Shown here piece after piece: positions 1 through 24,594 of a DNA stretch of 43,717 nt; within the stretch, counting starts at the first letter, position 1; every line of letters begins with the position of its first letter. This DNA comes from Candidatus Dormiibacterota bacterium (GTDB lineage Bacteria > Chloroflexota > Dormibacteria > Aeolococcales > Aeolococcaceae). The notes beneath the pieces were generated by a model. That model did not search any database and was not told where the DNA came from. It saw only the letters and a list, made by a program, of their open reading frames with translations. Position numbers and translations under genes: made by a program. The stretch is from assembly GCA_036495095.1 (NCBI GenBank), contig DASXNK010000117.1:1-43717 (forward strand). The letters are read 5' to 3'.

Positions 1-583
1 GGGCCAGCGCCGCGAGGTGGTCGAAGTGGATGCCGGCGCCGTCGCCGGTGAGCATCGCGGTGTCGCTGACGGTGCAGTCGTACGGCGGCACGTCGCTGAG
101 CGGGCCGTTCTCCACGGGGTGGAAGGGTTGGGTGGTGGGACAGGCCATCAGGCTCACCGAGGGCGGCTTCACGCCGCCGCCCAGGCCGAGGGTCAGGGTG
201 CCCACCTGCGCTCCAACGGCGACCGGGAAGCTCAGCGCCGCCACCGCCAGCGCGCCGGGAGGCGCGCCCCCGGCCGAGACCGGCGGCGGGGGGGCCGGCG
301 GAGGCGGCGGTGCGGGTGCGGCCGGGGGCGGCGGCAGCGGGGCGGGCAGCGGCGCGGGCGGCGCCGGGACGGCCGGCGCCCCACCCCCGGCCGCGCCCTC
401 GACCAGCAGGTCGCCGGTCTGCACGTCCGGCGGCGGCGGCACCGCCCCGCCGGGGGCTCCGGCCACCGACCACCAGGCGGTGCTGCCCGGCGCCTCCGCC
501 GCGGCATGGTGGACGCCTCCGGCCGACAGCGCCAGCCCGGTGGCCAGGGCGGCCACGGCGATCAGGGTGCGAGCCCCCCTCAT
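1..583 (-). CDS. secreted proline-rich protein, C-terminus beyond window
   Basis: Not recognised as a named family. The start is ATG at 583, overlapping the TGA of the upstream transporter gene as ATGA, so it is probably translationally coupled and the last visible gene of that operon. The product opens with MRGART and a hydrophobic stretch ending in an Ala-rich cleavage region, so it is likely exported by Sec. A proline/alanine/glycine linker follows at about residues 45-105. A more ordered part comes next with two cysteines, in MACPTT and PPYDCT, and a WxP-like spacing that suggests a disulfide-stabilised beta module. The gene runs off the left edge of the window, so total length and domain are unknown. 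From its position it may be an extracytoplasmic accessory of the transporter, but that is inference. Confidence 0.75.
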   Translation of the reverse strand, partial: MRGARTLIAVAALATGLALSAGGVHHAAAEAPGSTAWWSVAGAPGGAVPPPPDVQTGDLLVEGAAGGGAPAVPAPPAPLPAPLPPPPAAPAPPPPPAPPPPVSAGGAPPGALAVAALSFPVAVGAQVGTLTLGLGGGVKPPSVSLMACPTTQPFHPVENGPLSDVPPYDCTVSDTAMLTGDGAGIHFDHLAALA

Positions 584-3500
584 GCCGGCACCGCCGCGGC
601 GCCGAGGTAGGCGGTCACCACCCTCGGGTCCGAGAGCACCGCGGCCGGAGGGCCGTCGGCGATGACCCGGCCGAGGTCGAGCGCCACCAGCCGGTCGCAG
701 ACCGCCTTGATCAGCGGCATGTCGTGGGCGATCACCAGCATCGCGCACCCGGTCTCGGCGCGCACCCGGCGGAGCAGCGGGGCGAGCGCCTCGGTCTCGC
801 GCTGGGCGATGCCCGACGACGGCTCGTCGAGGAGCACCACCGAGGGGTTGTGGGCGAGGATCATGGCGAGGTCGACCACCCGGCGCGTCCCCGTCGACAG
901 CTCGCGGACGAAGCTGTCGCGGTGGGCGCCGAGGTTCATGAGCTCGACCAGGTCGGCGACCGTCCAGCCGACCTCGTCCTCCTGCTCCCAGACCGCGGGC
1001 AGCCCCAGCGCGGCGCTCAGGGGGTCGCGGACCTGGAGGTGGCGCTCCAGCCCCTGGGCGAGGTTCTCGGCGACCGTCAGGGAGGGGAAGATGCGCGCGT
1101 CCTGGAAGGAGCGGCCGAGCCCGGAGCGGGCGCGGCGGTCGGGCGACCAGCCGGCCACCTCGACGCCCTCGAGCTCGATGCCGCCCTCGTCGGGCTCGAG
1201 GAAGCCCGAGACCAGGTCGCAGAGGGTCGTCTTCCCCGAGCCGTTGGGGCCGATCAGGCCGAGGATCTCGCCGTCCCGCAGCCCCATGTCGACGCCGTCG
1301 ACGGCGTGGATGCCGCCGAAGGAGCGGCGCAGGGCGCGCACCCGCAGCACCGTGGCGCGCTCCGCCGGCACCGGCTCCGGGGCGGCCGGTGCGACGACCG
1401 CCGGCGCGCGCTCGGCGAGGAAGACGGAGCGCACCAGGTCGTCGCGCTCGGCGAGCGAGTCGGGGGTGCCCTCGAAGCGCACCTCGCCCTTCTCCATGAA
1501 GTAGGCGCGGGAGGCGAGCGCCAGGCTGATGTCGAGCGACTGCTCGACGACCACCACCGTGGTGCCCTGGGCGTGGAACTCGCGCACCTGGTCGAGAAGC
1601 TGTGCCACCACCACCGGGGCGAGGCCGAGCGACAGCTCGTCGACGATGAGCAGCCGCGGCGAGGTCATGAACGCCATCGCGAGGGCGAGCTGCTGCTGCT
1701 CGCCGCCGCTGAGGTCGCCGGCGCGCTGGCCGAGTCGCTCACCCAGGCGGGGGAAGCGGTCGAGCACCCGGGTCCGGGCGGTGGCGGCGGCGGTGCGGTC
1801 GCCGCCGAGCAGCCACCCGGCGAGCCGGAGGTGGTCGGCGACGCTCACCGTCGGGAAGACCCCCCGCCCCCCCGGCACCAGGGCGATGCCCAGCCGGGCG
1901 GCGACCTGGGGGCCGGCGCCGGTGATGTCGCGGCCGTCGAGGAGGATGCGCCCGGCGAGCGGCTCCATGAGCCCGCAGACGGCGCGGAGCAGGGTCGACT
2001 TCCCCGCGCCGTTGGTGCCGAGCAGCGCCACCACCTCACCCTCGCGCACCTCGGCGCTCACCCCGAAGAGCACCTGCACGGAGTCGTAGGCGACCTCGAG
2101 CCCCTCGCAGACCAGCAGCGGCACGGTGCCGCCGGCGGCCGGCGCCGGGGCGTCGGCGCGGCGGTGGTGGCGGCGGCGGCGGCGCACCCGGCCCCGGCCG
2201 CCGCCGCCACCGCCGTCGCCCTCGCCCGCCAGGCTGGGCACCTCGATGCCGTGGCGCCGCGCCACCGCCCGGAGCAGCCGGTCGCGCAGCCCGTACAGCC
2301 CCGAGGCGAGCCCCCCGGGTGCGGCGAGCAGGAGCAGGAGCACGCCGACCCCGCTGGCGAGCACCTGGAGGTCGCCGAGCCCGATCGCCGGCCCGACGTA
2401 GCGGAGCCCCTCGTAATAGAGGGCGCCGAGCAGGGCCCCGGGCAGCGAGGTGAGGCCGCCGACCACCACGAACACGAAGACCTCGAGGCTGGTCAGCACG
2501 CCGAAGGTGGGACGGTCGACGGCCTGCTGCTGGTAGGCGAGCAGCGCTCCCGCCACCGCGGCGATGAACCCGGAGATCGCGAAGGCGGCGAGCCGGGCGC
2601 GGGTGGCGCTGGTGCCCACCGCCTGGGCGGCGGCGACGTTGTCGCGCACCGCGATCAGCGAGCGGCCGGCGTGGCTGGCGCGCAGCGACCGCGCGCACAG
2701 CCAGGCGAGCCCCAGCACGCCGAGGCAGACGTAGTAGAAGGCGACGTCGCCGCGGACGTCGACGGCTCGATAGATGATCGGCCGCAGCACCGGCACGTCC
2801 AGCCCGGGCAGCAGCCACGACGTGTACTGGCGGTCGAGGACCACGTTCTGCACGGTCACCGCGAAGGCGAGGGTCACCACCGCGAGGAAGAGGCCCTGCA
2901 CCCGCAGCGCGGGCAGGCCGATGAGCAGTGCGGCGGCGGCGCCCGCCAGCCCGGCGGCGAGCAGGGTGACGAAGAAGTCGGCGTGGTGGTTGACGGCGAG
3001 GCCGCCGGCCACCGCCGCGCCGATCCCGCAGAAGGCGAACTGCCCCAGCGAGACCTGCCCCGCCCAGCCACTCAGGATCACCACGGAGATGCCGACGATC
3101 GCGAAGATGACCACCAGGGAGGCGAAGTTCGCGCGCACGCTGCCCACCACCAGCGGCAGGGCGACGAGCAGCGCGCAGACCGCGATGCGCAGACCGATGC
3201 GGCCCCAGCGCACCTCCGGGGTGGCGCGCAGCTCCAGGGGGATGGGGCGGAACTCGCGCAGGGTGCGGAAGGTGGAGACGCCGGTGTCGAAGGCGCGGCT
3301 CACCGTGCCCCGGCGCAGCAGCAGGGCGCCGAGGATGATCGGGAGCATGAGCGCGGCGCTGAGGTCGGGCTTCGAGGTGCCGAAGAAGGCGCTCTGGTCG
3401 ATGACCCCGATGCCCATGCCCGCGAGCAGCGCCAGCGGCAGGCTCTCCATCCCCGCCACCACCGCCGCGGCGAGACCGTAGAGCAGCACCGTGGGGCTGA

Positions 3501-4308
3501 CGCTCGCGCCGGGGGAGAGCCCGGTCACCGGCGCCCGCATGAAGACCGCGATCGCCGAGCAGACCGCGGCCACCACCCAGACCAGGGTCGAGAGCCGGCG
3601 CACCGGGATGCCGAGCAGCGCGGCGCGGTCGGCGTTCTCGGCGGCGGCGCGTACCGCGACCCCGTAGCGGCTCAGCCGCAGGAAGCCGGCGAGCCCGAGC
3701 ATCAGCGCCACCGCGACCACGAGGATCGCGATGTGGTCGCCGTCGAAGATCACCCCGCCGAGCTCGAAGCGCAGCCCGCGGAAGGGGGTGGGGAACTCCG
3801 GCGGCGCCAGCGTCCGCCCCGACACCAGTGCGGGCATCGCGATCTCGAGGACGGCGAGCACCTGGGCGAGGCCGATGGTGGCGACCGTGGCCACCAGCCG
3901 CGGCGAGCGGCGGAACCGCCGCATCACCACCACCTCGACGAGCGCTCCGGTGAGCGCCGCGCCGCCCAGCATCACCCCGGCGGCGACCCAGTAGGACACG
4001 TGGCGGTCGGTGACGAGCAGCAGCGCCAGCACCGCGGGCACCGCGCCCAGCCCCACCTGGGCGAAGCTGATCAGCCGGTCGGCCCGGTAGACGAGGATCA
4101 GCCCCAGCGCCACCAGCGCGTAGAGGGTGCCGATCACCATCCCGTTGGCGAGGATGCCGAGGGGAATGCCGGTGGGCAGCGGGAGCACCCCGACGTGGGT
4201 GATCCGCCCGCGGCCGAAGAGCAGCTCGTCGGCGGCCACCAGCGCGACCGCGGCGGCGGCGATCCGCAGCCCGGTGCGCAGCCCGGGCAGGCGCACGGGC
4301 ACGCTCAC
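580..4308 (-). CDS. four-domain branched-chain amino acid-type ABC transporter (LivH-LivM-LivF-LivG fusion)
   Basis: One uninterrupted frame encodes 1242 aa holding every membrane and ATPase part of a HAAT-family importer. Residues ~1-335 are a LivH permease and ~360-690 a LivM permease (GWAGQVSLGQFAF, and the EAA-like region around RDNVAAAQAVG). Residues ~693-726 are a Gly/Arg/His-rich linker. Residues ~730-965 are a LivF ATPase (Walker A GTNGAGKS near 762, signature LSGGEQQQ, Walker B LLIVDE). Residues ~985-1242 are a LivG ATPase (Walker A GPNGSGKTT near 1018, degenerate signature LSTGTRR, Walker B VVLLDEPSSG). The start is GTG at 4308, overlapping the TGA of the binding-protein gene as GTGA. 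Fusions of two of these parts are familiar in high-GC bacteria; all four in one chain is less usual. The substrate could be an amino acid, amide, urea or another small solute and cannot be read from sequence. Confidence 0.93.
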   Translation of the reverse strand: MSVPVRLPGLRTGLRIAAAAVALVAADELLFGRGRITHVGVLPLPTGIPLGILANGMVIGTLYALVALGLILVYRADRLISFAQVGLGAVPAVLALLLVTDRHVSYWVAAGVMLGGAALTGALVEVVVMRRFRRSPRLVATVATIGLAQVLAVLEIAMPALVSGRTLAPPEFPTPFRGLRFELGGVIFDGDHIAILVVAVALMLGLAGFLRLSRYGVAVRAAAENADRAALLGIPVRRLSTLVWVVAAVCSAIAVFMRAPVTGLSPGASVSPTVLLYGLAAAVVAGMESLPLALLAGMGIGVIDQSAFFGTSKPDLSAALMLPIILGALLLRRGTVSRAFDTGVSTFRTLREFRPIPLELRATPEVRWGRIGLRIAVCALLVALPLVVGSVRANFASLVVIFAIVGISVVILSGWAGQVSLGQFAFCGIGAAVAGGLAVNHHADFFVTLLAAGLAGAAAALLIGLPALRVQGLFLAVVTLAFAVTVQNVVLDRQYTSWLLPGLDVPVLRPIIYRAVDVRGDVAFYYVCLGVLGLAWLCARSLRASHAGRSLIAVRDNVAAAQAVGTSATRARLAAFAISGFIAAVAGALLAYQQQAVDRPTFGVLTSLEVFVFVVVGGLTSLPGALLGALYYEGLRYVGPAIGLGDLQVLASGVGVLLLLLAAPGGLASGLYGLRDRLLRAVARRHGIEVPSLAGEGDGGGGGGRGRVRRRRRHHRRADAPAPAAGGTVPLLVCEGLEVAYDSVQVLFGVSAEVREGEVVALLGTNGAGKSTLLRAVCGLMEPLAGRILLDGRDITGAGPQVAARLGIALVPGGRGVFPTVSVADHLRLAGWLLGGDRTAAATARTRVLDRFPRLGERLGQRAGDLSGGEQQQLALAMAFMTSPRLLIVDELSLGLAPVVVAQLLDQVREFHAQGTTVVVVEQSLDISLALASRAYFMEKGEVRFEGTPDSLAERDDLVRSVFLAERAPAVVAPAAPEPVPAERATVLRVRALRRSFGGIHAVDGVDMGLRDGEILGLIGPNGSGKTTLCDLVSGFLEPDEGGIELEGVEVAGWSPDRRARSGLGRSFQDARIFPSLTVAENLAQGLERHLQVRDPLSAALGLPAVWEQEDEVGWTVADLVELMNLGAHRDSFVRELSTGTRRVVDLAMILAHNPSVVLLDEPSSGIAQRETEALAPLLRRVRAETGCAMLVIAHDMPLIKAVCDRLVALDLGRVIADGPPAAVLSDPRVVTAYLGAAAVPA

Positions 4309-5966
4309 ACCCCCGGGGGCAGGTTCGGCTCTCCGGCGGTCCACTCGCCGGTGACGTAGCGCTGGCCGCCGTTCAGCTGGACGTAGGCGCCCGGCTTGCC
4401 GTCGAACTCCGAGGTCGCGGAGGCGCTCCAGTAGATCTCGCGGGCGTCGCTGATCCAGGTGTACTTGCCCGGGGCGAAGTGGAGGTAGGGGATGTGGGGG
4501 TCGTGGGTGGTGCGCCAGCCGCCGTACGACGGGCTGGTGAGGGTGGCGCGCTCGAAGGTCAGCGGGGTGAGCGCCGGCCCCGCCAGCTGCAGCGAGTTGG
4601 CGATCACCGCGTAGCCGGTCCACCCGAAGGCGGCGAGCGGGACCGGCCCGGTGCCGCCGGTCGCCCGGTAGACCTTCGCCCCGTCGGAGTGGTCGACCGA
4701 CTGGAACGCCGGCAGGTCGCCGATGCCGAAGGCGTGCTGCCACTGCTGGGTGTCGTAGGCGCGGCCGAGGATGTCGATGTCCATCAGGAAGCCGCCCTCC
4801 ATGACGTTCTCGGGGAAGTACGCCTGCGAGGTGGCGGCGTGGGTCCCGAAGACCGGGAAGATCGGGTCGCCGGCCCACATGATGGTGGTGACGTTCGAGC
4901 TCTTCAGCTTCGCCATCAGGGTCGTCGACTGGGCCACCGCGGTGCTGGTGTCGAGCGAGTACAGGGCCATCTGCGCCCCGTTGCGATCGCAGCGCTGGAT
5001 GCCCGCCTGGAGCTGCTCGAGCGCGGGACGGAGGATGTCGAGGTCGTCGGCGACGATCGCCACCTTGCGCGGCAGCCGCTGCAGGAGGGGATCGCCGGCG
5101 AAGCGCGCCGGCAGGTTGGCGAGCTTCTTGCACCAGTACTCGGAGGCGAGGACGGCCTGCTCGTCCTGGCCCATGAGGAGGCCGTAGAGGTAGGGCCGGT
5201 GGGCGATGCTGAAGGCGTTGCTGAGGCCCCCGAAGCTGATGATGCCCTTGCGTGCGAGCTCGTCGTAGACCTCGCCGGCAACGCCGAACCACATCGCCGC
5301 GAAGGGGTGGTAGGTGGCCGCCGCGGTGTCGACCTCGTTGCGCAGGCAGGGAATGTCGGGTGGCGCGAACTCGCACTGGCCCTGGAAGACGTCGAAATGG
5401 ACCTTCCGGCCGTAGAGCTCGTAGCGGGTGTTGATGAAGGTGGCGGCCCGATCGCGGAAGTCCTGCTCCTGCTGCGGGCTGCTGCTGAGCCCCTGCGACG
5501 CGATGATGGCGTCGACGGCCGCGTTGCGCTTGGGCCGGTAGAGCACCACCTCGATGCTGGTGCGGGTCACCCCCTGCGAGGTGGCGCCACCGTTGTCGCC
5601 GCCGCCCCAGGTGGGGGCGCAGGGCGGGGCCACGAGCAGCCCTCCGAACTGCAGGCCGCCGGCGCAGTGACGGGTGTCGCCGCCGGCATGACCGGTGCCC
5701 GGCAGCGCCGCCGCCGCCCCGACGCCGGCGCCGGGGCCTCCCGCGGTCGCCGGCCGGGTGCCACCCGGGCCCGTGGCGCCGGTGCCGGTGGTCGGGTCCG
5801 CCGCGCCTCCCGAGTCCGCGCCGGGGTCGGCGCCGGGCGTGGCGAGGGCGGCCAGCGGCGGCGGCGCCGCGGCGGGCGCGGGCGCGCGCGACGGCAGCGC
5901 GATCGCCAGCACCAGCTGGGCGATGGCAAGCAGCAGCAGAGGTGAGTAGCGCCGGACTGGGATCAC
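4305..5966 (-). CDS. periplasmic-binding-fold substrate-binding protein of the ABC importer
   Basis: This 553-aa exported protein is the likely solute receptor for the fused transporter encoded directly downstream, with which it shares a GTGA overlap. The start is GTG at 5966 with a GGGAGGG Shine-Dalgarno about 9 nt upstream. Residues ~8-25 form a hydrophobic signal or anchor, without a lipobox cysteine. An Ala/Pro/Gly-rich spacer runs to about residue 100. The rest matches a type I periplasmic-binding fold of the Leu/Ile/Val-receptor kind: an early strand with SIEVVLYRP, then KVAIVADDLD, then TTIMWAGDP. It is longer than a typical LivK (about 370 aa) because of the N-terminal spacer and a longer first lobe. 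The low-complexity spacer suggests tethering at a distance from the membrane. Substrate unknown. Confidence 0.85.
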   Translation of the reverse strand: MIPVRRYSPLLLLAIAQLVLAIALPSRAPAPAAAPPPLAALATPGADPGADSGGAADPTTGTGATGPGGTRPATAGGPGAGVGAAAALPGTGHAGGDTRHCAGGLQFGGLLVAPPCAPTWGGGDNGGATSQGVTRTSIEVVLYRPKRNAAVDAIIASQGLSSSPQQEQDFRDRAATFINTRYELYGRKVHFDVFQGQCEFAPPDIPCLRNEVDTAAATYHPFAAMWFGVAGEVYDELARKGIISFGGLSNAFSIAHRPYLYGLLMGQDEQAVLASEYWCKKLANLPARFAGDPLLQRLPRKVAIVADDLDILRPALEQLQAGIQRCDRNGAQMALYSLDTSTAVAQSTTLMAKLKSSNVTTIMWAGDPIFPVFGTHAATSQAYFPENVMEGGFLMDIDILGRAYDTQQWQHAFGIGDLPAFQSVDHSDGAKVYRATGGTGPVPLAAFGWTGYAVIANSLQLAGPALTPLTFERATLTSPSYGGWRTTHDPHIPYLHFAPGKYTWISDAREIYWSASATSEFDGKPGAYVQLNGGQRYVTGEWTAGEPNLPPGV

Positions 5967-15276: not shown

Positions 15277-17235
15277 TCATCCTTTCACGACGATGTCGAT
15301 GTGGGAGCTCAGCTGCTGGCAGCCGCTGACGGCGGCGATGTCGAAGCTGTTGGTCCCCCGCTTCACGGTGGCGTCTGCGACATAGTGTCCTGGACCGAGC
15401 TGGCGGAGGGGGAGGTCGCCGCCGGTGCCCGCCTGCTTGATCGAGCTCACGGTCGCGTCCAGGCCGTTGCCGCCGGCGTCGAAGTAGGTGGCGTGGAACT
15501 CGACCTTCCCGGCGGTCTCGGGGTCGACGTAGATCTGCAGTTTCCCCACCGGGAGCACGATGTTGTAGAGGGTGGGCAGCCCGTTGCCTCCGGGCTGCAC
15601 GGTGAAGGTCTGCGGCGGCACCCGCGGGGTCACCGTCACCGGGATCTCCACCGACGCGCTGCCCCGGTTCACCAGCGCGGTGACCTGCCAGGCGGTCCCG
15701 AGCGCGAGGTTGCTGCCGGTCGCCGTCCAGGTGCCCGGGGCGGTGCGGGTCAGCGGCAGGGTGGTGGGGCCCAGGCTCTGGCAGGACGGGGCGGCGAACC
15801 CCAGCTGCACCCCGGTGGCGTCGAGCGGCCGGCCGGTGTCGTAGTCGGTGAGCACGGCGGAGAAGCGGTTGGGCCCGGTCGACCCCGGGGTGACGGTCAG
15901 CCGCATCCGCACGCTGGTGCCGTAGTCGTGGGCGTCGAGCACCAGCGACGGCGGTGCCTGGGCGGCGGCCCGGGCGACCTCCGAGGTCGGTGGTGCCTCG
16001 TTCACCAGCCCGGCGGCGACGAGCAGGGCGGCGACCGCCACCATCACCTCGACGCCGGCGACCCGCCGCAGCCCGCCCACCCCCCGCGCCGCCACCGGCA
16101 CATTGCGGAAGCGGTTGACGGCGCCGAGCCCGGCGAGCAGCAGCAGCAGCCCGACCTTGACCAGCACCAGGATGCCGAAGGTGGTGCCCCACAGCCGGTC
16201 CCAGGCGCCGATCTCGATCACCGCCCGCACCGTCCCGGTGGCGGCGACGGCGAGCAGGGCCACCCCCGCCAGGGTGCTGAACCGGCGGACGGCCCGTCCC
16301 CTCGCCTCGCCGGCCAGGCCCCGGATGCCCAGGAGCAGGGCGAACAGCCCCCCCACCCAGAGGGCGCCGGCGGCGATGTGCACCCACTGCATCGCGGCGT
16401 TCACCGCCACCGCCGACCCCGCCGCCGCGTGGCTGTTGAGCACGTCGGCGAGCATCGCCAGGGCGCCGGCCGTCCCGGCCACCCCCACCGCGGTGCGGCG
16501 CCGGGTGTCGCCGCCGCGGAAGGCGAGCACCAGCGCGGCGCCCGCGATCGCCAGCGGGATCGAGCGCTCCACCACGGTGCGGCCGATCGAGGTGGAGAAC
16601 ACGTCGCCCAGCCCCGCCCCGGCGTTCCTCGCCTGGGAGGCGATCACCGTCGCCGTCCCCACCACCGCGAGCCCCCATGCCACCGGCAGGGTGCGCACCA
16701 CCGCGCGGGCGGGCCGGGGCAGCACCATCGTCGCCACCCCGGCGCCGCCGACCAGCCCCACCAGTCCGAGGAAGAGCACGGCGCGCCCGGCGATGTCGGC
16801 GGCGCTGGGGCCGGGCGGCCCCGCCACCGACGCTGGGATCGACACCGAGCTGGGGTCCTTCCGCACCCCGAAGGCGAAGGCGCCGCCGGCGACGTGGCCG
16901 TCGACGTGCGAGAAGGTCCGCCAGCTGACCGTGTAGACCCCGGTGGGGAGGGGCTTCAGCGCGACCCGGAGCTGCAGCGGATTCCCCGGCACCGCCTGGG
17001 CGGCCCCCTGCTGGTACGGCTGGCCGCCGGTGGACAGCACCTCGATCGAGGAGAGCCGGGGGTCCGGCTCCTCGCCGAAGGTGATGATCACGTCGGCCGG
17101 CGGCTGGGGGAGGTCGGCCCCGCTGTCGGGCACGGAGCTCTGCCGCAGGGCGTGCGCGGAGGCGTGGAGCGGCAGCGCCGCCACCGCTCCGAGTGCCACC
17201 AGCAGGGCGACCAGCCCCAGGATCAGGCGCCGCAC
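15277..17235 (-). CDS. CopC-CopD fusion protein (copper import/handling) with C-terminal beta domain
   Basis: This 652-aa membrane protein joins a signal peptide (1-27), a CopC copper-binding domain (28-~125) and a CopD-type multi-helix membrane domain (~150-430), followed by an extra extracytoplasmic beta domain (~440-652). Cleavage after ASA leaves His28 as the first residue, the classic CopC Cu(II) ligand. FSHVDGHVAGGAFAFGV supplies the second histidine/aspartate cluster. The membrane part has HIAAGALWVGGLFAL, typical of CopD. The start is GTG at 17235, only 4 nt after the stop of the upstream gene. Fusions of this type are known as YcnJ-like proteins. The additional C-terminal domain resembles YtkA/FixH-like beta sandwiches. 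Confidence 0.88.
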   Translation of the reverse strand: MRRLILGLVALLVALGAVAALPLHASAHALRQSSVPDSGADLPQPPADVIITFGEEPDPRLSSIEVLSTGGQPYQQGAAQAVPGNPLQLRVALKPLPTGVYTVSWRTFSHVDGHVAGGAFAFGVRKDPSSVSIPASVAGPPGPSAADIAGRAVLFLGLVGLVGGAGVATMVLPRPARAVVRTLPVAWGLAVVGTATVIASQARNAGAGLGDVFSTSIGRTVVERSIPLAIAGAALVLAFRGGDTRRRTAVGVAGTAGALAMLADVLNSHAAAGSAVAVNAAMQWVHIAAGALWVGGLFALLLGIRGLAGEARGRAVRRFSTLAGVALLAVAATGTVRAVIEIGAWDRLWGTTFGILVLVKVGLLLLLAGLGAVNRFRNVPVAARGVGGLRRVAGVEVMVAVAALLVAAGLVNEAPPTSEVARAAAQAPPSLVLDAHDYGTSVRMRLTVTPGSTGPNRFSAVLTDYDTGRPLDATGVQLGFAAPSCQSLGPTTLPLTRTAPGTWTATGSNLALGTAWQVTALVNRGSASVEIPVTVTPRVPPQTFTVQPGGNGLPTLYNIVLPVGKLQIYVDPETAGKVEFHATYFDAGGNGLDATVSSIKQAGTGGDLPLRQLGPGHYVADATVKRGTNSFDIAAVSGCQQLSSHIDIVVKG

Positions 17236-17239
17236 GGTG

Positions 17240-17899
17240 CTAGAGCCCCGAGCTCCGCCGCCGCGCGCTCAGCCCGAGGCCGATGCCTGCGCCGCCGAGG
17301 ACGAGGGCGGCGAGCAGCGCCACCAGCGCGGTGGGCAGCGCGTCGGGCCTGCTCTCGACCCTGTCGACCCGGGCGCTGACCCGGTCGAGCTTGGTCGAGA
17401 TGTCGGTGACGCTCGGCACCCTGGCCGGGAACTCGACGCCGGCCGGGTTGTCCACGGTGGCGAAGGTCTTGTCGCTGGCCGTCGCGGTCTCGTCGACCGG
17501 GGTGTCCTTGATCTTCCCGCTGATGTGGAAGGTGTAGTTGCCCGGGGCGGTCGGGATGAAGTGCATCTGGTACTCGCCCGGCGTGCCCAGGCCGGTGTCG
17601 GGGTCGGCGGTGGGCACCAGCGGCATCGCGTCCATCCTCTGGCCGCCCAGGCTCACCTCCACCTTGAGGTCCTTGTCGGTGATGTCGGTGACCGGGGTGG
17701 TGTCCTGCTTGACGATCACCTGGACGGCGTTGTCGAAGCCCACGTACGCGGGCTCATGGAGCCAGCCCAGCGCGATCGTGTAGGGACCGAAGGGCTTGAC
17801 GATGTGGGCGAGGGCGGGATGGACGGCGCCGAGCGCCAGTGCCCCGGCGGCGAGCGCGGCGACGCCGGCGCGGGCTGTTCTGGATGTGGTGACTGTCAC
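17240..17899 (-). CDS. exported, C-terminally anchored beta-sandwich protein of the copper-type operon
   Basis: This 219-aa protein has a signal peptide ending ALA and a mature N-terminus [15 protein letters not shown]; a histidine at the first mature position recalls CopC-type copper binding. A beta-sandwich of about 130 residues follows, with an Ig/YtkA-like pattern ([21 protein letters not shown]). Then come a short predicted coiled region ([19 protein letters not shown]) and a C-terminal transmembrane helix with a basic end (SARRRSSGL). The start is GTG 17899 with AGGAG 7 nt upstream. It sits between the polytopic membrane gene and the CopC-CopD fusion, which starts 4 nt downstream, so the two are coupled. 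It probably presents metal to, or receives it from, the fusion protein (inference). Confidence 0.75.
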
Positions 17900-21752: not shown

Positions 21753-23429
21753 ATGACAACTGTGCTGCCCGCACGCGAGGACGATACCGCCACCGCCGAG
21801 GAACCGCGTGTCCTCAACCTTCGCGGCCGTCCTGCGACCGCGTCCGCTTCGCGCCGGCGCGCCGCCGCGGTGACCGTGGCCGACTGCCTGCGCCTGCCCG
21901 CGCTGCGCGGCAGCGAGGTGGTCGCCGGCGCCGCCGGGCTCGACGCCCCCGTCCATCGCGCCTCGACCGCGTCGCAGACCCATGGCTGCGTCCCCGGCGA
22001 GCTCCGGCTGCTGGGCCGGCTGCTCACCGCCGACGCCGTCCACATCGCCCACGAGCGCGGCGCCGCCGCCCTCGCGGCCGCGGTGGTGTCGGCGGAGGCG
22101 GCCGCGGCGGCCGGCCTGCTGGGGACGCCGGTGATCCGGCTCGCCCACCACGTCGACCTCGAGCTCATCGCCACCGAGCTCACCGACTTCATCGTCCGGG
22201 CGCTCGAGGAGAGCCTCGCCGAGCTCGGGCGAGTCAGCTCGCGGCTCGCCGCCGCCGGCGCCTCCGACCTGCGGATGGAGAGCCTGAGCGAGGCCCTCGC
22301 CTCGGCGCTCGGCGCCACCGTGCTGATCGAGGACGCGGAGTTCCGGGTGCTCTACGCGGCCGGTCCCGGCGCCGCCGAGCGCACCCGCATCGACGCCGCG
22401 CGGGCGCGGGGGAACGCCGCCGACGAGCACGGCTCGATGGCGCTCCGCGACTTCTACCGCACCCTGGTCAAGACCGGGCGGCCCGCCTGGCTGCACCCCG
22501 ACCCGCGGCTCGGCGTGCTGGTGCCGCGGCTGGTGGCGCCGATCGTCGCCTCCTGCGAGGTGCTCGGATACTGCAGCGTGTTCTTCCCCGACAAGACCCC
22601 CGACCAGCGGGTGGTCACGGTCGCGGTGGAGCAGGCCTCGAACCTGCTCGGCCTGGCGCTGCTCCACGAGCGGGTCATCGGCATGAGCCGCCGGACCGCG
22701 TGCGCGAGCATGCTCGTCGACCTGCTCGACGGCCGCATGTCGGCCCAGCTCCTCCGCACCCGGGCGGGGCAGCTCGGTGTCGACCTCAGCGCCGGACTGA
22801 CGGTGGCGCTCTTCGAGGGGCCCCCCGACCAGCGCCCCGAGGCCTGGCTGCGCCACGCGCTGACCACGCTCAACGGCCAGCGCGACTCCCTGGTGGACGT
22901 CGTCGCCGGGACGGTCGTGGCCCCGCTCGCCGGCTGCGACCGGCCCAGGGCGCTGCGCTGGCTCCGTGGCCTCTGCGTCGCCTGCGGCGGCGGCGCCGCG
23001 GTGCTCGGCCGCGCCACCGACGTCGACGGCGTGCCCACCGCCTACGCCGAGACCCGGCGGGTCCTCGACCTGGTGGGCCGCTCCGAGGCCGCGTCGCGCG
23101 GCGCCGTCGTCGACGTCGAGGACCTCGGCCTCCTCGGTGTGCTCATCGACTCCTCCGCCAGCGGAGCGCTGGAGCGCTTCTGGCAGCGGCGGCTCGCCCC
23201 CCTGCGCGAGTACGACTCCCGCGAGCGCAGCGACCTCTGCGGGTCCCTGGCCGCGTTCTTCGAGGAGGGCGGCCTGCGCCGCGCCGCCCGGCGGATGAAC
23301 CTCCATCCCAACTCGTTCAACTACCGCCTGCGGCGCGCCGAGCAGATCGGCGGCTTCTCGCTCGCCGACCCCGACGCCCGCCTCGAGCTCCAGCTGGCGC
23401 TGCGCTGCCAGCGCCTTCTCGGCCGCTGA
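21753..23429 (+). CDS. PucR/CdaR-family transcriptional regulator
   Basis: This 558-aa cytoplasmic regulator has an N-terminal PucR-type part (~40-160: VTVADCLRLPALRGSEVVAG, STASQTHGC) and a middle sensor-like region (~180-300: LIEDAEFRVLYAAGP, VAPIVASCEVLGYCSVFF). A CdaR/GGDEF-like region (~310-430) follows. The C-terminal helix-turn-helix ends LCGSLAAFFEEGGLRRAARRMNLHPNSFNYRLRRAEQIGGF, the classic HTH_30 signature. The start is ATG 21753, with AGGGG 4-7 nt upstream. Such regulators control catabolism of purines, sugars or amino acids. The only same-strand neighbour is the LivM-like permease 25 nt downstream, which makes that gene a candidate target. Confidence 0.9.
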   Translation: MTTVLPAREDDTATAEEPRVLNLRGRPATASASRRRAAAVTVADCLRLPALRGSEVVAGAAGLDAPVHRASTASQTHGCVPGELRLLGRLLTADAVHIAHERGAAALAAAVVSAEAAAAAGLLGTPVIRLAHHVDLELIATELTDFIVRALEESLAELGRVSSRLAAAGASDLRMESLSEALASALGATVLIEDAEFRVLYAAGPGAAERTRIDAARARGNAADEHGSMALRDFYRTLVKTGRPAWLHPDPRLGVLVPRLVAPIVASCEVLGYCSVFFPDKTPDQRVVTVAVEQASNLLGLALLHERVIGMSRRTACASMLVDLLDGRMSAQLLRTRAGQLGVDLSAGLTVALFEGPPDQRPEAWLRHALTTLNGQRDSLVDVVAGTVVAPLAGCDRPRALRWLRGLCVACGGGAAVLGRATDVDGVPTAYAETRRVLDLVGRSEAASRGAVVDVEDLGLLGVLIDSSASGALERFWQRRLAPLREYDSRERSDLCGSLAAFFEEGGLRRAARRMNLHPNSFNYRLRRAEQIGGFSLADPDARLELQLALRCQRLLGR

Positions 23430-23454
23430 CCTGAGGGCCGGTCCCCGCCTCGCC

Positions 23455-24594
23455 GTGGGGGCGGTGGTGGCGTTCGTCGCACTCCTCGCGACCCTGATCG
23501 TCCCCGTCGTCCAGGCCGACAGCCGGTACGAGCCGGTGGTGCTCACCGGGGTGGCCGCGGGCCTGGCGGCGGCGCTCGGGGTGCTGGGGACGCGCCGCCT
23601 GGTGGCCGTGCTCGGCGCCGCCGCGGTGGTCGCCATCCTGCTGTCGCCGCAGCTCGCCGCACCGGGGCCGCTGCTGCGCAGCGCCGACCTGGGCGCCGTC
23701 CTCGCCATCTCCGGGCTCGGCGTGGTGGTGCTCGGCGGCTGGGCGGGCCAGCCCTTCCTCGCGCCGCTCGCGGTGACCGGCCTGGGGGCGTACACCGTCA
23801 CCTGGGTTGTCGCCGGCCTGGGACAGCCCGCGGTCACCGGTGTCTGCTGCGCCCTGGCGGTGAGCCTCGGTCTCGGCCTGCTGCTCTGGGCGGTGTGCAC
23901 CGGGCGCGGCCAGACCGCGGTCGCGGTGGTCACCCTCGGCCTCGCCGCCGTGCTCGACGCCGCCGTGTTCCGCAGCGACCGGGCCGGCGGGGTGCGGCTC
24001 ATGCCCGGCGATCCCGCGCCGGCGTCGCTGCGCCACTACGCCCTGCTCGCCGTGCTCGGCGTGTGCATCCTCGGCGTGGCGGGGATGCGCCGCGGCGGCA
24101 CCCGCCTCGCCCTGGTGGCGGCCCGCTCCGAGGCCGCCGCCGCCGCGCGTGGCGTCGACGTCGCCCGGGCCCGGCGCACCGCCTGGACTTCCGCCTGCCT
24201 GCTCGCCGGGATCGCGGGATGCGCGCTCGCGCTGGTCGAGGGGGGCGCCGCCCCCGCACTCCTCCACCCCCTCGACTCGCTGCGGCTGGTGGGCCTCGTC
24301 ATGGTCCTCGGCCGCACCCGGATCACCGCCGCGCTGGTCGCCGGGGCGGTCTGCGGCCTCGCCGCCGCACCCCCCCTGACCGCCGGTGCGCTGTCGGGAG
24401 GGGAACCCACCTGGCTCGACCTGGCGGTTGGGACGTCCGTGGTGGTCGGGGTGCTCGGCCGCGAGTGGTGGCGCCGCGATCACAAAACCCTGCGTGCCCT
24501 GGTTGGGCCCGCCGCCGCAGGGGCGGTCGGTGCAGTGAGTCCATCCCGGAAGCCCGGTACCTGGTTCGGAGCGATGTCCGGTGACGCTGAATGA
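23455..24594 (+). CDS. orphan LivM-like branched-chain amino acid permease-type membrane protein
   Basis: This 379-aa protein with about 9-10 hydrophobic segments has the LivM hallmarks in diverged form. GGWAGQPFLAPLAVTGLGAYT corresponds to the GWAGQ-S-GQ-F region, and ARSEAAAAARGVDVARARRTAWTSACLLAGIAGCAL is the EAA-like loop that contacts the ATPase. No cognate ATPase, LivH or binding protein lies beside it; it could pair with components elsewhere or be a specialised transporter remnant. The start GTG 23455 is 25 nt after the regulator's stop and has no clear ribosome site; an upstream non-ATG start cannot be excluded. The C-terminal tail is hydrophilic. Confidence 0.72.
   Translation: MGAVVAFVALLATLIVPVVQADSRYEPVVLTGVAAGLAAALGVLGTRRLVAVLGAAAVVAILLSPQLAAPGPLLRSADLGAVLAISGLGVVVLGGWAGQPFLAPLAVTGLGAYTVTWVVAGLGQPAVTGVCCALAVSLGLGLLLWAVCTGRGQTAVAVVTLGLAAVLDAAVFRSDRAGGVRLMPGDPAPASLRHYALLAVLGVCILGVAGMRRGGTRLALVAARSEAAAAARGVDVARARRTAWTSACLLAGIAGCALALVEGGAAPALLHPLDSLRLVGLVMVLGRTRITAALVAGAVCGLAAAPPLTAGALSGGEPTWLDLAVGTSVVVGVLGREWWRRDHKTLRALVGPAAAGAVGAVSPSRKPGTWFGAMSGDAE

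Follow-up and report, generated by a model that had tools for sequence, protein, structure and literature searches.

A gene on the minus strand of the window, by which we mean the whole stretch of 43,717 nucleotides that was analyzed, encodes both permeases and both ATPases of a Liv-type ABC importer in one open reading frame, and sequence comparison confirmed this four-domain fusion gene as real and conserved. The product is most probably the complete core of a binding-protein-dependent Liv/HAAT importer in one chain, which would most simply have arisen by in-frame joining of a LivHM gene and a LivFG gene. Translation from the GTG at 4308 to the TGA at 582-580 found 0 internal stops across the 1242 amino acids, and Pfam placed PF02653 twice and PF00005 twice in that frame in the order LivH-LivM-LivF-LivG (whole-protein scores of 172 and 195 bits, respectively), with the LivG tail PF12399 at residues 1214-1239, at the C-terminus. 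The original prediction, LivH, LivM, LivF and LivG in a 1242-aa frame without an internal stop, was borne out by the translation and the Pfam matches. Its interval and length were correct, and translation of 4308 to 580 fixed the strand as minus. The domain content and the open frame also support its broader claim that a complete Liv-type ABC importer core is encoded in a single polypeptide-coding frame. Two marks of a HAAT-type importer were present, namely two BPD_transp_2 (PF02653) domains, each scoring above the curated cut-off, and LivF- and LivG-like ATPases with Walker A/B and the PF12399 tail. Table 1 lists the coordinates.

Table 1. Features of the four-domain gene, its neighbors and related fusion loci. 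Positions are those of the window unless a locus is named.
Feature	Position	Strand	Remarks
Four-domain fusion gene LivH-LivM-LivF-LivG	580..4308	-	1242 aa, GTG start, TGA stop
LivH-like permease domain (PF02653)	3325..4152	-	84 bits, above curated cut-off
LivM-like permease domain (PF02653)	2377..3132	-	104 bits, above curated cut-off
Flexible Gly/Arg/His-rich linker, membrane half to ATPase half	2128..2232	-	residues ~693-727, pLDDT ~30
LivF-like ATPase domain (PF00005)	1636..2064	-	Walker A GTNGAGKST, LSGGEQQ
Ala/Pro-rich linker, LivF to LivG domain	1348..1416	-	residues 965-987
LivG-like ATPase domain (PF00005)	817..1299	-	Walker A GPNGSGKTT, signature LSTGT, switch His present
Binding-protein-like gene, upstream	4305..5966	-	553 aa in longest frame; putative role
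Secreted Pro-rich protein gene, downstream	1..583	-	truncated by contig end; signal peptide by eye
MFS-LivF fusion loci	L123:4127-7342(-), L125:5965-8505(+), L126:1757-4132(+), L130:3378-5726(+)		G010 and Embleya

The window has a GC content of 75%, and in such DNA a long stop-free frame alone is weak evidence. A chance open frame was set aside because of a paralogue and an orthologue. The paralogue, encoded elsewhere in the same genome on contig C45 (C45:11105-14689), is full-length, shares 49% identity with the window protein over residues 12-1237, lies in one open frame and has the same four-domain architecture according to Pfam. In the orthologue, an 85%-identical copy in a genus mate (G002), LivH, LivM and LivF lie in one open frame that crosses the junction between the membrane and ATPase halves. 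The linkers of the window and G002 proteins differ in length by whole codons and share 50% identity. Nucleotide change between the two genes was dominated by the third codon position on both sides of the linker (0.058/0.031/0.294 in LivM and 0.107/0.064/0.291 in LivF) and amounted to 0.286/0.405/0.452 in the linker itself. In genome G001 the LivHM part is 97% identical and the Gly-rich linker is interrupted by the contig edge; G001 and G002 both have C45-like genes that run off the ends of their contigs at or near the linker.

One gene could nevertheless give rise to two proteins, separate LivHM and LivFG halves produced through an internal start or by cleavage of the linker, which would form a two-part importer like that of a genome of the same family (G010), where the halves are encoded by two genes. 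We consider this rather unlikely. A disordered, Arg-rich linker that changes as fast as the comparison with G002 indicates may be cleavable, and GTG codons are found at residues 690, 708 and 729; however, the linkers of the window, C45 and G002 genes have no conserved start codon, inspection by eye revealed no clear ribosome-binding site before the candidate starts in the linker, and in none of the three genes is LivHM ended by a stop codon. A stop or frameshift hidden at the junction and internal starts were the weak points named in the original prediction; both were looked for at the sequence level and neither was found. The cell would be expected to contain one polypeptide. That a base lost or gained in the G-rich linker during sequencing or assembly has joined two separate genes is very unlikely. 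The G001 contigs do end in the G-rich stretch, which indicates that it is hard to assemble, and the G002 copy has a small apparent disruption of the frame elsewhere, at the start of LivG, beyond which the sequence is conserved in a neighboring frame (this assembly is 67% complete and contains N runs). Against such an error, linkers of different sequence are read through in the same open frame at two loci of one genome and in another species, whose genome was assembled independently.

The four-domain gene overlaps both of its neighbors. The upstream binding-protein-like gene and the transporter start share 4 bases (GTGA), and the four-domain gene of C45 also starts on a GTGA, where its own upstream gene ends, as read from the sequence. 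Homologues of the upstream protein, 22-35% identical with the exception of close orthologues, precede the LivHM genes of C45, G001, G002 and three G010 loci; the binding-protein-like genes found before several LivHM loci of these genomes make up a family that has no match in Pfam. For the protein of the window, no Pfam match was obtained and the profile search returned a non-significant hit (3td9, E 0.66). Its predicted structure is a low-confidence model (pLDDT 48.6), the top fold matches of which were periplasmic proteins that bind Leu/Ile/Val and aromatic acids (1z15, E 3.5e-8, TM 0.31). We infer from these data that the upstream gene encodes a divergent binding protein. A single chain that exports its substrate or serves as a channel regulated by the ATPases, a reading favored by the lack of a recognized family for the partner binding protein, is scarcely credible: both permeases and ATPases belong to the families found in Liv importers, the gene immediately upstream is coupled and binding-protein-like, as it is at related loci, and the weak model of its product matches periplasmic binding proteins. 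Transport by the single-chain Liv importer would be directed inward. On the other side, the start of the downstream gene overlaps the transporter stop by 4 bases (ATGA) at 583, and its product has an apparent signal peptide followed by a Pro-rich stretch. A comparable frame lies downstream of the G002 orthologue.

The structure of the fusion protein was modeled from 11 sequences (pLDDT 76.5, pTM 0.67), and the model predicts two helical membrane domains, a disordered linker and two ATPase domains. A linker had been claimed at residues ~693-726, in agreement with the stretch of pLDDT ~30 at residues 694-727 (model numbering + 42). The top structural matches were the fused importer ATPase pairs DppD and OppD from M. 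tuberculosis; in a PDB search that covered mainly the ATPase part, the ATPase pair aligned to DppD across both domains (Z 28.9, rmsd 6.0 over 466 residues). In the proposed mechanism, the LivH and LivM domains would form the membrane path, the flexible linker of ~35 amino acids would let LivF and LivG pair head-to-tail beneath them, and the separately encoded upstream binding protein would deliver the substrate.

The Walker A motifs of the fusion protein are located at residues 764 and 1020, the Walker B motifs at 886 and 1157, and the ABC signatures at 866 (LSGGEQQ) and 1137 (LSTGT). The claim of two intact Walker A/B sets was right, but the remaining ATPase motifs are partly non-canonical. 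The LivF domain keeps LSGGEQQ and Walker A/B, has Gly at the Q-loop position where 1ji0 has Glu, and carries Gln in place of the switch His. The LivG domain keeps the Q-loop Gln and the switch His, and its signature is LSTGT. Since LSTGT and the Q-loop Gly are also present in the C45 and G010 relatives, they are features of the subfamily and not of the fusion. ABC ATPases pair head-to-tail, and this geometry combined with the asymmetry of the motifs would produce one near-canonical ATP site, in which Walker A/B and the His of LivG face the LSGGE of LivF, and one degenerate site, in which Walker A of LivF faces the LSTGT of LivG.

The best alignment of the first ATPase domain was to the LivF-like 1ji0 (3e-50); the second has the LivG tail and matched, among others, LptB and the branched-chain amino acid ATPase 1g6h. 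Scores against the E. coli LivF and LivG equivalogs, NF008626 and NF008449, were below the NCBIfam cut-offs (250/441 and 273/362 bits, respectively). Judged by these scores, the two ATPases are of the same broad type as E. coli LivF and LivG without belonging to either equivalog. The UrtE cut-off was nominally passed (288.5 vs 285.8 bits), but that score sums two ATPase domains, and the protein was therefore not assigned as a urea transporter.

The simplest origin of the fusion would be the in-frame joining of LivHM and LivFG genes like those of G010. On contig C28 of that genome, genes for LivHM (789 aa) and LivFG (576 aa) overlap by ATGA, and their products share 43% and 60% identity, respectively, with the window protein. 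This is exactly the kind of half-fusion that the original prediction had described as familiar, and the pair likely represents a precursor-like state of the fusion. In a LivHM tree, the C28 half-fusion was sister to the window clade (98/96), C19 of G010 branched next (89/89) and C45 fell outside; the LivFG tree agreed, with moderate support. The position of the C28 half-fusion between the window clade and C45 means that the fusion occurred twice or that a later split took place in G010. Because of this branching of the half-fusion LivHM between the C117 lineage, that of the window, and the C45 lineage, we tentatively suggest that single-chain importers are a lineage-specific class that may have arisen two or more times within a single genus, although the opposite is somewhat easier to believe. 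If they did, complete fusion would have been favored repeatedly in this group. The window genome has, on contig C77, another frame (L030:1652-5287(+)) that joins LivM to two ATPases and belongs to a different Liv system, whose LivH is separate, indicating that fusions of Liv domains are frequent here. The arrangements found among relatives, LivHM + LivFG, LivHMG, LivM-ATPase-ATPase and LivHMFG, can be viewed as steps from a multi-subunit transporter to one protein.

Other fused frames were observed. An MFS domain is joined in frame to a LivF ATPase at three G010 loci and in Embleya sp. NBC_00888 (PF07690 in G010, our own MFS profile in Embleya). These genes adjoin LivHM or LivHMG genes, and one of them is MFS-LivF-LivG. 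It is odd for an MFS carrier to be fused to an ABC ATPase, and no paper on such a fusion was found in the literature searched. Within the window, CopC and CopD domains share one frame at 15280-17268 (-), and a 431-aa frame at 23299-24591 (+) has a BPD_transp_2 match below the cut-off (22.4 bits).

The four-domain form was seen only in the genus of the window, across a class sample of 110 genomes and a phylum sample of 181. In the class sample, 4 of the 110 genomes gave matches at E<=1e-90, and one of these four was G010, which has the half-fusions; in the phylum sample, matches were confined to G000 and G010. Another class of the same phylum gave 0 matches in 158 genomes at E<=1e-90, in a search that had no positive control in that class. 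Among the best 80 loci listed from named public genomes there was no four-domain frame; these included 1 permease-permease-ATPase, 3 permease-ATPase and 12 ATPase-ATPase frames. In plasmids, no place covers 80% of the query. Bacterial importers are usually presented as complexes of separate subunits, and none that carries all four core domains in a single chain was found in the part of the literature that was searched.

LivHMGF/HAAT-type importers are made as four separate subunits. Those for branched-chain amino acids and the urea transporter UrtBCDE share with the window system the four domain families, the LivF/LivG-like ATPases and an adjoining binding-protein-like gene; the window system differs from them in having a one-chain core, LSTGT as the LivG signature and Gly at the Q-loop of LivF. 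The Liv core is a 1:1:1:1 heteromer, with one each of H, M, F and G, so that the idea that fusion fixes the subunit ratio is true and adds little. In a natural single-chain Liv importer, each ATP site and each permease could be altered independently by mutation while the assembly stays fixed. The C28 pair of G010 has the same domain order and a binding-protein-like gene upstream, but consists of two overlapping genes instead of one. In the LivH-LivM-LivG fusions of Acidimicrobiales JOPF271, Embleya NBC_00888 and C16 of G010, both permeases and one ATPase are in one chain and LivF is separate, joined to MFS in Embleya and in G010 C16. ABCB full exporters also have four core domains in one chain of ~1250 aa. 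However, the exporter order is TMD-NBD-TMD-NBD, while that of the fusion protein is TMD-TMD-NBD-NBD with BPD_transp_2 permeases, and in a whole-model comparison ABCB chains fitted poorly (TM 0.17-0.32, rmsd 23-30 A); the proposed layout of an ABCB-type exporter did not hold. M. tuberculosis DppD and OppD and B. subtilis RbsA and NupO likewise have two ATPase domains in one importer chain, but their permeases are separate proteins, unlike those of the fusion chain. ATPase-ATPase (NBD) fusion is relatively rare among prokaryotic transporters, and degenerate sites have been noted in RbsA and NupO (PMC11466899).
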